This document shows, piece by piece, positions 8,899-21,201 of a stretch of 32,849 nucleotides of DNA. The stretch spans positions 1 through 32,849 of the forward strand of contig PKTT01000066.1 in the NCBI GenBank assembly GCA_002869015.1, read 5' to 3'. Source of the DNA: Deltaproteobacteria bacterium (GTDB lineage Bacteria > Desulfobacterota > Deferrisomatia > Deferrisomatales > BM512). The notes under the pieces are model-generated. The model was given only the letters and a program-made list of their open reading frames with translations, made no database searches and had not been told where the DNA came from. The translations under genes and the position numbers were made by a program. Every line of letters begins with the position of its first letter. The first letter of the stretch is position 1.

Positions 8899-9939
8899 CT
8901 ACCCCCTCGCCTCCCATGCCTTCCTCAAGAGGCGCTCGGTTGTCTCCCAATCAATGCAGGCATCGGTGATGGAGAGGCCATATTTAAGCGCTGAAAGGTC
9001 ATCACCCAGCTTTTGGTTCCCACCCTCAATGAAAGACTCCAGCATAAAGCCGCATATATTGGACCCGGCGCGAATTTGATCAAGCACGCCGTCTAGGACC
9101 ATCTCCTGCTTCAGGTAATCTTTGCGTGAGTTGCCGTGGCTACAGTCTATGACAATCCCTGGCGGCAGCGAAGCTTCTGAAAGGATGCTGCTCGCTTCGT
9201 CAACATCCTCCTTAGAGTAGTTGGGGCGCTTGTCGCTACCTCTCAAAACCAGATGTACGTCACCATTACCGCCGGTCTCAATTACCGCAGCGCGACCATC
9301 ATGGCTAATGCCGAGGAAGGAGTGTGGTGAGCGCGCCGCCTTAATAGCGTCGATTGCAACCGCGAGCTCGCCGCTGGTGGGATTTTTTATCCCCACCGGA
9401 AAAGATAAGCCACTTACCATCTCACGATGAGTCTGGGACTGGCTTGTGCGCGCGCCGATGCCGCCATAGCTGATCAGGTCCGCAAGATACTGCGGGTTTA
9501 CAGGGCTCAACGTCTCGGTCGCTATTGGGAGGCCAAGCTCCGTGATCCCACAAAGCACCCTCCTGGCGATGCCAAGCCCTTTGGATATGCGATTTGTGCC
9601 GTTAAGGTCCGGGTCGCTGATGAGTCCCTTCCATCCAAGGGTGGTCCTCGGCTTCTCGAAGTAGACCCTCATGACTATGAGGAGGCGGTCTGAAAGCTCC
9701 TCCGCCAGCGCAGCGAGACGCTTGCCATAGTCAATGGCGGCGGCCGGATCGTGAATAGAGCAGGGTCCGACGACGGCGAGGAGGGTTTCATCCCTGCCGT
9801 TGATTATATCCGAAATCTTCGCGCGCGCGCTGGTGACAAGCTCCACCCCACCATCTGGTGAAGGGAAGACCTGTTTCAAAGAATCCGGCGCGATTATCGG
9901 CGTCAGTGACTTAACGTGTACATCTTCAGTTGGGCGCAT
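8899..9939 (-). CDS. 3-deoxy-7-phosphoheptulonate (DAHP) synthase, type I-alpha (AroFGH-like)
   Basis: This enzyme condenses phosphoenolpyruvate with erythrose 4-phosphate, the first step of the shikimate pathway. The 346-residue length matches E. coli AroG, AroF and AroH. Landmarks are GPCSIHD at 58-64 (C60 is the metal-ligand position), KPRTTLGWKGLISDPDLNGT from 96 and GARTSQSQTHREM from 162. Also present are VGIKNPTSGE, the conserved GGNGDVHLVLRG segment and IDCSHGNSRKD. The family motif is normally ARTTESQ-x-HRE, so ARTSQSQTHRE is a small departure. AAGGAG precedes the ATG at 9939. The 207-base upstream gap shows no leader peptide or attenuator of the kind seen for the second DAHP synthase at 18961. 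Feedback type (Phe, Tyr or Trp) cannot be told from the sequence. Confidence 0.93.
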   Translation of the reverse strand: MRPTEDVHVKSLTPIIAPDSLKQVFPSPDGGVELVTSARAKISDIINGRDETLLAVVGPCSIHDPAAAIDYGKRLAALAEELSDRLLIVMRVYFEKPRTTLGWKGLISDPDLNGTNRISKGLGIARRVLCGITELGLPIATETLSPVNPQYLADLISYGGIGARTSQSQTHREMVSGLSFPVGIKNPTSGELAVAIDAIKAARSPHSFLGISHDGRAAVIETGGNGDVHLVLRGSDKRPNYSKEDVDEASSILSEASLPPGIVIDCSHGNSRKDYLKQEMVLDGVLDQIRAGSNICGFMLESFIEGGNQKLGDDLSALKYGLSITDACIDWETTERLLRKAWEARG

Positions 9940-16506: not shown

Positions 16507-17544
16507 ATGACTAAGAAGAGGCTTACCCAGCTCTCAGCCGCTTCGGGTTGAGGCGCTAAAACCGGGCCGGAGGTTCTGGCCGGGCTGCTCGCCAACCTTG
16601 ATATACCAGTCGACGAAAAGGTGCTAATCGGGCTCCATACCGGCGACGACGCGGGGGTGCGCCTTCTCGATAGCTCAAACGCGTTGGTACAGACGGTTGA
16701 TTTCATATCCCCGGTTGTGGATGACCCTTACGCCTTCGGCCAGATAGCCGCCGCCAATTCACTTTCCGATGTTTACGCTATGGGCGGAACCCCTATAACT
16801 GCCCTCAACGTGCTGGCTTTTCCCTGCAAGGAGCTTAGTCGGGATGAGATTACCGCGATACTACAGGGAGGGGCGGATAAAGTCGCTGAAGCAGGGGGGG
16901 CGCTCTTGGGGGGCCATACCGTTGAGTCTCCCGAACTTTTTTATGGTCTCTCGGTAACTGGGCTCGTAGACCCGGCAAAGCTAATCTCAAACGCCAACGC
17001 AAGGCCCGGCGACAACTTAATTCTCACCAAGCCCTTGGGCGCGGGCATGGTATCGACCGCGGTAAAGGGTGGGCTCGCCTCCCCGGCTCATACCGAGGCG
17101 ATGGTGAAATCAATGGCGACCCTCAATAAAAAGGCTGCCGAAGCGATGGTCTCGGCAGGCGTTAGGTGCGCCACGGATGTCACCGGCTTCGGCCTAATAG
17201 GCCACGCTGCGGGCATAGCGCGGGAGAGCAAGGTAAACTTGATTTTCGACTGGGAGCGCATCCCTCTCCTACCTGGAGCAAAAGAAGCCTATTCATTGGG
17301 AATGGTCGCTGCCGGTGCTTATGCCAACCGTGAAAAATGGCACGACATAGTTGAGGTAAGAGCCAAGGAGGGTGAGGAAGCCCTGCTCTATGCATCGGAC
17401 CCTCAGACCTCCGGGGGCCTCTTAATCTCGGTCTCACCGCATGAGTCGGAGCGTCTCCTCGAAGTGATAATATCCTCCGGAACCGCAGAGGCGGCAATTG
17501 TGGGAGAGGTCGCACCTGGCGATGGTTCCCTGATTATAAGGTGA
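16507..17544 (+). CDS. selD: Selenide, water dikinase SelD, itself a selenoprotein (in-frame UGA = Sec15)
   Basis: SelD makes selenophosphate from selenide and ATP for selenocysteine and selenouridine synthesis. The true start is ATG 16507 with AAGGG upstream. Codon 15 is TGA (16549-16551) in the context SG-U-GAK, aligned with the catalytic Cys17 and Lys20 of E. coli SelD (GAGCGCK). The catalytic Lys is K18. Many SelD proteins have Sec here, and a SECIS-like hairpin follows, so I read the UGA as Sec. The product is 345 residues. Downstream are the ATP-site aspartates (TGDDAGV), AAANSLSDVYAMGG, GGHTVESPELFYGL and the C-terminal CATDVTGFGLIGHA. A finder treating TGA as stop starts at GTG 16621 and loses the active site. 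It sits 7 bases after yedF and overlaps the next gene by 4 bases (GTGA). Confidence 0.93.
16549..16593 (+). promoter_or_regulatory. Sec codon and candidate bacterial SECIS hairpin in selD
   Basis: After TGA (16549-16551), GGCCGG (16565-16570) pairs with CTGGCC (16576-16581) around a 5-base loop AGGTT. The stem extends past a G-G mismatch by CC (16562-16563) with GG (16583-16584). An outer GGCG (16552-16555) can pair with CGCC (16590-16593). The loop lies about 19 bases after the UGA and contains GGU, as expected for a SelB-binding bacterial SECIS. Confidence 0.75.
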
Positions 17545-18960: not shown

Positions 18961-20085
18961 TTAACCTTGGGACTCAGCGAACCTCTTGGCCTCTTGCCGC
19001 CTCTTTAGATAAGCCTCTCTGGTAATAGCGATATCCTCCAGAAAGTGCTCAAGCTCACGCATTAAAAGGGCCTGGGGTCCATCACAAAGAGCCGCCTCCG
19101 GCTTGGGATGGAAGTCGGCGAGGATCATGTTGGCGCCTGCGATTATTCCCTGAGCGGCTGCATGCTGTATATCAAGTAGCCCATCCGGCGCCATCACCTT
19201 TTTACCTACTGAGTGTGAGGGGTCTATGCAGACAGGCAGGCGCGTCTGCCGCTTGACCACCGGCACATGCGCAAAATCAACTAGGTTTCTGTGGGGGTCG
19301 CCCAGGTTGGTTTTCATCCCCCTAAGGCAGAATATGATGTTGTGGTTGCCATTTGATGCTATGTACTCGCAGGCATTTAAGGACTCCTCTAGGGTTATGC
19401 CCATACCCCTCTTGAAGAGCACCGGGAACTCCTGCTGCGCTCCTACATGCTTTAGAAGCTCGAAATTCTGGGCGTTTCTCGTGCCGATCTGCACCATCAC
19501 CCCTGTGGGGTTGCCGGACTGCTCCAACGCGTATGATATCTCCGTCAGCTGGCTCTCATGGGTAATCTCCATGGCTATAACCTTGATGCCATACTTACCA
19601 GCGAGCTCGAAAACGTAGGGCAAACACTTTGCCCCGTGCCCCTGGAAATCATAGGGCGAGGTGCGGGGCTTGTATGCGCCCATCCTTGTCGTTTGTAGGC
19701 CGACCTCCTTTAGCCCTTTAAGCATCATCTCAACGTGTTCTCGTGTATCCACTGCGCAGAGCCCCGCGAAAACGTTAAGGTTGTCCTGGTCAAACCTTAC
19801 GCCATTGTAATCAAAGCCCCCTACCTCGGTTTGCCCCTCATGTCTTCCTATTATTTTGTACTTTGAATTTACGCGGAAGACCTTCTCGACAAAGGGCAGC
19901 TCGTCAAATGCCTCAAGGGGAACCTGCGTGGTCGGCCCGAAGACGTAAACCTCGCTTATAGTCTCAATAGCTCCCTTGACGTTATGGGGGCTTAGCTTAA
20001 GGTCGGGGTAACGCATGGCGACCTTCTCAAGCTGCTCCATCTCAGGCATTCCGGGCTTGAAGCCCTCTTTCAAAATGATAATCAC
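18961..20085 (-). CDS. 3-deoxy-7-phosphoheptulonate (DAHP) synthase, type I-beta, behind an aromatic-codon attenuator
   Basis: This 374-residue protein has a ferredoxin-like N-terminal domain (VIIILKEGF...) and a PEP/E4P-condensing barrel. Type I-beta landmarks are KPRTSPYDFQGHG from residue 139, GTRNAQNFELLKHVG, PVLFKRGMG, GNHNIIFCLRGMKT and LPVCIDPSHSVG. Some usual motifs are altered: GPCSVE reads GLCAVDT (C110 kept) and CERG reads CLRG, so it is a divergent branch. The start is GTG 20085, with AGAGGAG 6 bases upstream. A GTG at 20139 lies inside the upstream terminator stem and has no ribosome site. The leader holds a promoter, an aromatic-rich peptide ORF and an attenuator hairpin. That supports a true role in aromatic amino acid synthesis. 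It is the second DAHP synthase in the window. Confidence 0.85.
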   Translation of the reverse strand: MIIILKEGFKPGMPEMEQLEKVAMRYPDLKLSPHNVKGAIETISEVYVFGPTTQVPLEAFDELPFVEKVFRVNSKYKIIGRHEGQTEVGGFDYNGVRFDQDNLNVFAGLCAVDTREHVEMMLKGLKEVGLQTTRMGAYKPRTSPYDFQGHGAKCLPYVFELAGKYGIKVIAMEITHESQLTEISYALEQSGNPTGVMVQIGTRNAQNFELLKHVGAQQEFPVLFKRGMGITLEESLNACEYIASNGNHNIIFCLRGMKTNLGDPHRNLVDFAHVPVVKRQTRLPVCIDPSHSVGKKVMAPDGLLDIQHAAAQGIIAGANMILADFHPKPEAALCDGPQALLMRELEHFLEDIAITREAYLKRRQEAKRFAESQG

Positions 20086-20125
20086 CTTTTTCTCCTCTCT
20101 TGACGGTCGCGCCGGATGCAGGCAC

Positions 20126-20172
20126 AAAAAAACGGCCACTGCATCTGCTCTCGCGTCTGCCAGTGGCCGTTT
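20126..20172 (-). terminator. Attenuator terminator in the leader of the I-beta DAHP synthase gene
   Basis: On the minus strand AAACGGCCACTG (20172-20161) pairs perfectly with CAGTGGCCGTTT (20141-20130), a 12-bp stem with a 19-base loop. It ends in seven T (20132-20126). It lies 41 bases upstream of the DAHP synthase start and 35 bases after the leader-peptide stop, inside the transcript rather than after a gene. Confidence 0.9.
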
Positions 20173-20263
20173 AATGTTTTGGTTTGATGTATTTAACGCT
20201 TTTTGGCTACACCTCCACCGGCCTGGCAGACTTCATAAAGAAGCCCCAAAAATAAAACCGGCT
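20159..20263 (-). promoter_or_regulatory. Alternative leader RNA pairings (protector, antiterminator) of the attenuator
   Basis: Segment 1, GCCGG (20262-20258), covers leader codons 11-12. It can pair with segment 2, CCGGT (20221-20217), closing an inner GGCTTC/GAAGTC hairpin (20245-20240 with 20234-20229). Segment 2 extended, GCCGGTGG (20222-20215), can instead pair over 8 bp with segment 3, CCACTGGC (20166-20159). Segment 3 overlaps the 5' arm of the terminator. The pairings are mutually exclusive, as in amino-acid attenuators. Energies were not computed. Confidence 0.65.
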
Positions 20264-20293
20264 AAAAAAGGAGTAGCTGTTTGCGTTGGTCAT
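20207..20293 (-). CDS. Aromatic-rich leader peptide (28 aa) of the I-beta DAHP synthase attenuator
   Basis: A short ORF runs from ATG 20293 to TAG 20207, with AGGA (20302-20299) as ribosome site. Its 28 residues hold Phe at 9, 10, 13, 15, 18 and 19, Tyr at 7 and 14, and Trp at 16. That is 9 aromatics in the 13 residues from Tyr7 to Phe19 (YSFFSRFYFWGFF). The rest is ordinary and the end is RPVEV. The ribosome would stall in this run when aromatic aminoacyl-tRNA is scarce. It would then cover segment 1 (codons 11-12) while leaving segment 2 (codons 24-27) free. This parallels PheL and TrpL leaders of enterobacteria. The peptide itself probably has no function. It is too short for usual gene finders. 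Confidence 0.85.
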   Translation of the reverse strand: MTNANSYSFFSRFYFWGFFMKSARPVEV

Positions 20294-20320
20294 TTCAATC
20301 CTGAAAGTTGTCTATAAGCT

Positions 20321-20349
20321 CTTATATAACTCACATCTTTTAAAGGCAA
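20321..20349 (-). promoter_or_regulatory. Sigma-70 promoter of the leader-DAHP synthase transcript
   Basis: On the minus strand TTGCCT (20349-20344) and TATAAG (20326-20321) are exactly 17 bases apart. Transcription would start near 20314, about 21 bases before the leader-peptide ATG. The -35 box starts 13 bases after the end of the upstream DUF3795 gene. Confidence 0.6.
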
Positions 20350-20361
20350 GTTATTATCATC

Positions 20362-21201
20362 CTAATGCTTGGAAATAGTCTTCAAGTGGCTCTTCATCAT
20401 CTTGCGTGCGTGCCCATCTACGCCTAGCTCACGTATCTGGAGGATGCAAGCCGCCCTGTCGGAGTTTTGGAAAAACCCGTAGAGCTTCGAGAAGAAGTTG
20501 TTGAACTTTTTGCAATCACGGGGGTTTGTAAACTCCACGCATTCAGCGCAAGTTCTATAATCCAAGTTGCCGCAGCACTCCCTCACCTTGCACCATGTTG
20601 CCTTTATGTTATCTTTACAACCTTTGCACTTCTCATCCAGGAAGGAGCGGCAAGCCGAGCATACTAGGCCGCAGGCGGCGACTATGAAGTTTGTTGGCTG
20701 CTCGGCTAGAAATGCTCTGTGCCTGGGGTTTACTGCATCCTCACCCCAAATTTCCTCTATACGAACTTTTACTTTAAGGGCATGTGTTTTGGTAGCTGAG
20801 AGGAGCTCTTCTCGGACCTCGCCCCCCCTACCACTGTGTCTTAAGAAGAGGTTGAATATCTTTCCTTCAATCAACGAGGTCTCAAGGTTTAATGCAGCTT
20901 CCAACGCGCTGCGCAGAGAGAGGTCTCCCTCCTCGGCCAAACCCTTTAGCTCACTGAGCTTTTCCATGGTCTGTTTTATATGCTCAGGGTCAATACCAGC
21001 GGCATCAACCTTGACGTTCCCCTCCTCTACACCCTCTTTTAAGGCCAGAATCCACTGTTGGTGCTGGTCCTCCTCGTGGGCAAGGTCATCCCAGAAGCTC
21101 TCCTCTTCGGCGAACTGCCGGGCGAAAGTGCGGTAAAGGTCTCCGACGCAAAGTTCAAGGTCGGCAAAGAGCAACAGGGTTTCAATATCACCTGAACGCA
21201 T
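20362..21201 (-). CDS. Ferritin-like / Cys-rich DUF3795 fusion protein
   Basis: The product has 279 residues in two parts. Residues 1-155 are helical with rubrerythrin/ferritin-like traits: E16 in LFADLELCVGDLYRTF, EEDQH at 43-47 and ETSLIEGKIF at 107-116. The second metal ExxH of real rubrerythrins is not clear. Residues 170-260 match the Cys-rich DUF3795 type: ACGLVCSACRSFLDEKCKGC, then CKVRECC, CAECVEF and DCKKF, with 12 Cys from C177 to C252. The Cys pattern suggests Zn or Fe-S binding. The fusion hints at a metal- or redox-related role, but no function is established. GGAGG precedes the ATG by 4 bases. An extended -10 promoter lies about 75 bases upstream. Confidence 0.7.
   Translation of the reverse strand: MRSGDIETLLLFADLELCVGDLYRTFARQFAEEESFWDDLAHEEDQHQQWILALKEGVEEGNVKVDAAGIDPEHIKQTMEKLSELKGLAEEGDLSLRSALEAALNLETSLIEGKIFNLFLRHSGRGGEVREELLSATKTHALKVKVRIEEIWGEDAVNPRHRAFLAEQPTNFIVAACGLVCSACRSFLDEKCKGCKDNIKATWCKVRECCGNLDYRTCAECVEFTNPRDCKKFNNFFSKLYGFFQNSDRAACILQIRELGVDGHARKMMKSHLKTISKH

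Follow-up and report, generated by a model that had tools for sequence, protein, structure and literature searches.

A ribosome-mediated leader-peptide transcription attenuator very probably controls the gene of a divergent DAHP synthase in the window, the whole stretch of 32,849 nucleotides that was analyzed here; we put the probability of this reading at about 0.9. The reading was based on the presence of all the parts, on their conservation, on mutually exclusive pairings maintained by compensatory changes, and on the match between leader codons and regulated genes across a wider family. The transcription start, the stalling of the ribosome and the efficiency of termination are inferred. 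An earlier note had proposed an aromatic leader-peptide attenuator before this gene from the letters of the window, and both conservation and compensatory changes supported that proposal strongly. The positions of the parts are collected in Table 1.

Table 1. Positions in the window of the predicted attenuator parts and of the gene that follows them
Feature	Position	Strand	Details
Probable promoter, TTGCCT-17-TATAAG	20349-20321	minus	Sequence match
Ribosome site of the leader ORF, AGGA	20302-20299	minus	5 nt before the ATG
Leader ORF	20293-20207	minus	28 codons and TAG; peptide MTNANSYSFFSRFYFWGFFMKSARPVEV; kept in L006-L010 and L012
Aromatic control codons 7-19, YSFFSRFYFWGFF	20237-20275	minus	9 aromatics in 13 codons
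Segment 1 core, GCCGG	20262-20258	minus	Pairs with 20221-20217 if ribosome-free (RNA fold)
Segment 2, TCTGCCAG, codons 22-24	20230-20223	minus	Antiterminator 5' half
Segment 3, CTGGCAGA	20163-20156	minus	Antiterminator 3' half; overlaps the terminator 5' arm
Intrinsic terminator	20172-20126	minus	12-bp stem and T7; 78/84 cells paired, 7 species
Divergent type I-beta-like DAHP synthase	20085-18961	minus	374 aa, GTG start

The leader ORF with its ribosome site was found as the earlier note had described it, and the nine aromatic residues between codons 7 and 19 were Y7, F9, F10, F13, Y14, F15, W16, F18 and F19, that is, six Phe, two Tyr and one Trp. When the two strands of the window were scanned for ORFs with six or more aromatics in 10 codons and a terminator close by, this leader was the sole match, and its RNA folded more stably than every one of 200 shuffles (z = -4.0). 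The promoter was the weaker part. Its hexamers were present, with 9 of 12 positions matching the consensus, but under a stricter promoter-scan rule the site was not listed. In relatives, hexamers spaced exactly 17 nt apart were seen at comparable places upstream of the leaders.

The divergent DAHP synthase gene was present in 8 of the 12 genomes of the window's order, and the comparison was made among the seven species, including the window, with enough upstream sequence. In all seven, a leader 25-29 codons long that encodes 7-10 aromatics lay ahead of a terminator, and an aromatic run was present in each of the seven predicted peptides. Between the window and the congeneric L006, 83 of 87 positions were identical in the ORF and 49 of 49 in the terminator, whereas the stretch immediately upstream matched at 22 of 33. 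The stem of the terminator, AAACGGCCACTG (20172-20161) with CAGTGGCCGTTT (20141-20130), was the perfect 12-bp hairpin that had been noted ahead of the synthase start, followed by T7 at 20132-20126, and its helix was conserved in 92.9% of cells (78/84, seven species). The antiterminator, formed by 20230-20223 with 20163-20156, was paired in 55 of 56 cells in the seven species and contained two doubly compensated pairs: the outer pair was seen as U-A, C-G and G-C, and another pair as A-U and C-G. Its covariation score was reached by none of 500 shuffles, nor by any sliding of the register. The two helices are mutually exclusive, and the antiterminator was conserved by compensation. Base 20162 belongs to both, and in five species it was G rather than T; a matching change was present in the antiterminator partner of each of the five and in the terminator partner of four of them. 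Orthologue alignment, which the earlier note had suggested as a check, thus recovered the ORF, the aromatic run, the terminator and the antiterminator compensation in all six informative orthologues. The competing pairings were revised in the process. The proposed pairing of segments 2 and 3 (20222-20215 with 20166-20159) is indeed found in the window, yet its register was unconserved, with 37 of 56 cells paired, and it was rejected in favor of the 55/56 register. The proposed pairing of segments 1 and 2 (20262-20258 with 20221-20217) was present in the fold but conserved only in part (27 of 35 cells).

The position of the hairpin between two same-strand genes, together with the weak promoter match, would also allow it to do no more than terminate the upstream gene (20362-21201), with an incidental ORF and a synthase promoter downstream of the hairpin. 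We considered this very unlikely, as the aromatic ORF and the terminator were kept in all informative orthologues despite a differing upstream region, compensatory changes tied the 3' part of the ORF to the terminator arm, and the strand control of the survey described below gave 61 regions with leader and terminator against 1.

In the attenuation mechanism that we propose, RNA polymerase would start near 20313, and a ribosome would then translate the 28-codon leader. When charged Phe-, Tyr- or Trp-tRNA is scarce, the ribosome would stall at codons 7-16 and block the pairing of segment 1, so that segment 2 (20230-20223) could capture segment 3 (20163-20156); with that helix formed, no terminator would arise, and the DAHP synthase gene would be transcribed. 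When the tRNAs are charged, the ribosome would reach the stop codon (20209-20207), leaving segment 2 either covered or paired with segment 1, and with segment 2 unavailable, the terminator at 20172-20126 would halt transcription. Phe would be expected to weigh most, as it accounts for six of the nine control codons.

The leader was also folded with a ribosome footprint. The earlier note had called for folding with and without segment 1 masked, and in the window the probability of the 2:3 helix rose from 0.03 with no ribosome to 0.89 with a ribosome stalled at codons 7-16. With the ribosome at F18 or F19, the probability was lower (0.44 and 0, respectively) because segment 2 was then covered, and with the ribosome waiting at the stop codon, where segment 2 was partly covered, it was 0.52. 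The ribosome-free probability was low in 5 of the 7 species. However, in the other two (L006 and L008) the antiterminator was predicted to be released without a ribosome, and in L012 most stalls gave little gain in the 2:3 helix, which makes the pairing of segments 1 and 2 the least secure part of the mechanism.

The C-terminal part of the leader was fairly conserved (KSARPVEV, RKPARAAEV, HAARASEV), a feature that would fit a specific nascent-peptide arrest like that of TnaC, in which the free amino acid rather than tRNA charging is sensed. Yet that conservation was accounted for by segment 2, and elsewhere in the family the peptide varied while the aromatic run persisted and its composition tracked the gene. 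Such an arrest therefore seemed highly improbable, and tRNA charging remained our preferred signal.

The regulated enzyme had been called a type I-beta DAHP synthase, and the assignment held only in a broad sense. Its closest solved relatives were DAHP synthases (4grs and 1rzm), and Pfam gave PF00793 and PF18152, the latter (the ferredoxin-like N-terminal domain) at 24.9 bits against a cut-off of 27. Against TIGR01361, the NCBIfam model for type I-beta, it scored 218.2 bits, under the curated cut-off of 267.75. The KPRTSP motif was kept, along with the Cys, His and Asp positions that we take to be metal ligands, while the Glu of the EVH motif was replaced by Asp. Because of the sub-cut-off score and the changed EVH motif, the I-beta label denotes here a divergent sister group, whose members are predicted from their sequences to have DAHP synthase activity. 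The same genome encodes a canonical I-alpha DAHP synthase at 8899-9939 of the window and a canonical I-beta enzyme (C50). Two other genes of the window deserve mention in their own right. The selD gene (16507-17544, plus strand) appears to encode a selenoprotein: its frame runs upstream of the listed start (MTKKRLTQLSAASGUGAKTGPEV), and a TGA codon stands in frame where the active-site residue is expected. The gene upstream of the leader (20362-21201, minus strand) encodes a 279-aa protein whose C-terminal half is rich in cysteine and which had no Pfam or NCBIfam matches.

A survey across the phylum extended the finding to the canonical enzymes. A leader had to have six or more aromatics in 10 codons and a terminator no farther than 160 nt away, and leader starts were assigned mechanically. 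By this criterion, 58 of the 130 regions preceding canonical I-beta DAHP synthase genes had a leader and terminator, compared to a single one of the 130 when the reverse strand was read; with further paralogues included, the counts were 61/161 and 1/161. Because these regions were best-scoring matches, such rates do not represent an unbiased prevalence. By our own tally, the positives were spread over 24 families. All three aromatic residues occurred in the densest stretch of 44 of the 58 leaders, and many leaders had an antiterminator helix 8-14 bp long; in L300, for example, GGCGTCTGCCCG pairs with TGGGCAGACGCC.

The distribution among the enzyme groups was uneven. In the window's own order, the attenuator was on the divergent DAHP synthase, and no leader was found at the canonical I-beta paralogues examined there. 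Outside the order, no convincing aromatic leader preceded the orthologues of the divergent enzyme (L036-L114, most of them at 62-69% identity, and L133-L154, at 57-66%), nor did the second gene copies in several genomes have a convincing one in the right orientation. Canonical I-beta genes of two other phyla yielded three candidates, at least two of them plausible, in 41 loci, 30 of which were from the phylum of G302, and no leaders in 30 loci from the phylum of G303. Possible aromatic leaders, MNSRFYFYYFGAFTTGP and NWFWWSWRF, were seen before I-beta DAHP synthases at L323 and L343 in the phylum of G302.

A covariance model was built from the seven leaders and searched against 297 genomes, of which 59 had matches at E <= 0.01, many of the better ones upstream of I-beta DAHP synthases. 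Weak matches in the window's order (E > 1e-5) were left uncounted; for the most part they were ordinary terminators or palindromes matched on the reverse strand. Among 68 aligned family members, the 2:3 helix was paired in 436 of 481 cells, whereas 500 row swaps gave at most 424. Leaders of the family also preceded other genes. Mixed or Phe/Tyr leaders stood before the genes of ADH synthase and 3-dehydroquinate synthase II (L385, L395, L419 and L426). These two genes represent a DAHP-independent entry to the aromatic pathway. Leaders with 7-10 Phe and no Tyr or Trp preceded phenylacetate-CoA ligase genes (L386, L387, L403 and L423), the PaaK assignment of the ligase falling just short, with 641.9 bits where the cut-off is 646.3. 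An NYWWWQ leader preceded trpE (L422), and further model matches lay before an I-alpha DAHP synthase gene (L394) and an aminotransferase gene (L427). DAHP synthase genes with Trp-rich leaders, e.g., FWWCWWWC, were followed by trpE- and trpD-like genes in four cases (L243/L437, L253/L438, L272/L441 and L291/L440), where the I-beta DAHP synthase gene was the first of a trp operon; a trpG-like gene was also recognizable in L438 and L440. The names of these trp-like genes came from reading the sequences rather than from a family search. Two other DAHP synthase genes, L283 and L304, had Trp-rich leaders with no trp genes after them. One genome, G168, contained both a Phe-only and a Trp-rich leader. 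Across the family, the codon content of the leader follows the gene that is regulated.

The scores of the covariance model suggest that the attenuator core before different genes may be homologous, and convergence is possible. We see even odds that one ancestral core (GTCTGCCC ... GGCCRYGGGCAGAC ... terminator) has acted within the phylum as a mobile regulatory cassette, placed before non-homologous genes, with its codons rewritten for each product. This interpretation covers I-beta, I-alpha and divergent DAHP synthases, ADH synthase, trpE, phenylacetate-CoA ligase and the aminotransferase.

A T-box is predicted for leuA of Geobacter (PMC2700814), and a tRNA-binding T-box or another aptamer could in principle control the present terminator as well. 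This was the most improbable of the alternatives, as the conserved element was the coding aromatic run, the window matched nothing in Rfam, and the loci of 20 relatives had no hit above threshold to any leader or T-box family. The attenuators described here form a phylum-wide aromatic family that is absent from Rfam. An RNA element conserved 5' of a T. maritima-type DAHP synthase in Geobacter (Gmet_R0069/GSUR082) was reported as unexplained, with no mechanism proposed (PMC2700814); by description and position, that element and the present attenuator may be the same thing.

The mechanism itself is of an already known kind. The enterobacterial pheL-pheA, pheM-pheST and trpL-trpE systems share with ours a leader ORF of cognate codons, 1:2, 2:3 and 3:4 pairings and an intrinsic terminator (PMC11802643 and general knowledge). 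Unlike those systems, the present one brings the three aromatics together, acts on the first enzyme of the common pathway, has no match in Rfam and shares a core resembling GGCCRYGGGCAGA. The earlier note knew of no established leader-peptide attenuator for an I-beta DAHP synthase. Our search of open-access papers likewise found no description of this attenuator family, but other DAHP synthases provide precedents, and the family is phylum-wide rather than a single case. In C. glutamicum, a Phe-Tyr-Phe leader peptide encoded by aroR controls the DAHP synthase gene aroF, with transcription enhanced by Phe limitation (PMC11802643, PMC4046766). That system belongs to another phylum, and the aromatic run of aroR is much shorter than those found here. 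The C. glutamicum AroF enzyme is not known to be of the I-beta type. In Acholeplasma, the uORFC-13-1 motif, a uORF with Phe codons followed by a terminator, was proposed before aroF (3-deoxy-7-phosphoheptulonate synthase) (PMC8632094); likened by its description, it is known from 24 representatives, found in Acholeplasma and in environmental sequences, and contains at least one Phe codon, compared to the mixed run here. For E. coli aroF, leader-peptide control is a hypothesis cited in PMC8632094. What is new is the presence of an all-aromatic leader before genes of the I-beta family, together with a shared core re-coded across non-homologous genes.

The attenuator is predicted to release a short, distinct RNA, about 185 nt long, with a strong terminator at its end, and by analogy with rnTrpL and peTrpL of Sinorhizobium, the terminated leader RNA or the peptide might also act in trans. 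A role in trans is reported for the leader peptide peTrpL (PMC7298713). We regard such an additional role here as unlikely.

Our finding that aromatic leaders precede DAHP synthase genes across this phylum points to a control of shikimate pathway entry that appears to have gone previously unnoticed. Since the codons of a leader show which amino acid an operon serves, the leaders also provide functional annotation. They set Trp-dedicated DAHP synthases apart from general ones, and they place the group of divergent DAHP synthases within aromatic biosynthesis. By the same principle, the Phe-only leaders suggest that the phenylacetate-CoA ligases which they precede serve the synthesis of Phe from phenylacetate rather than degradation.
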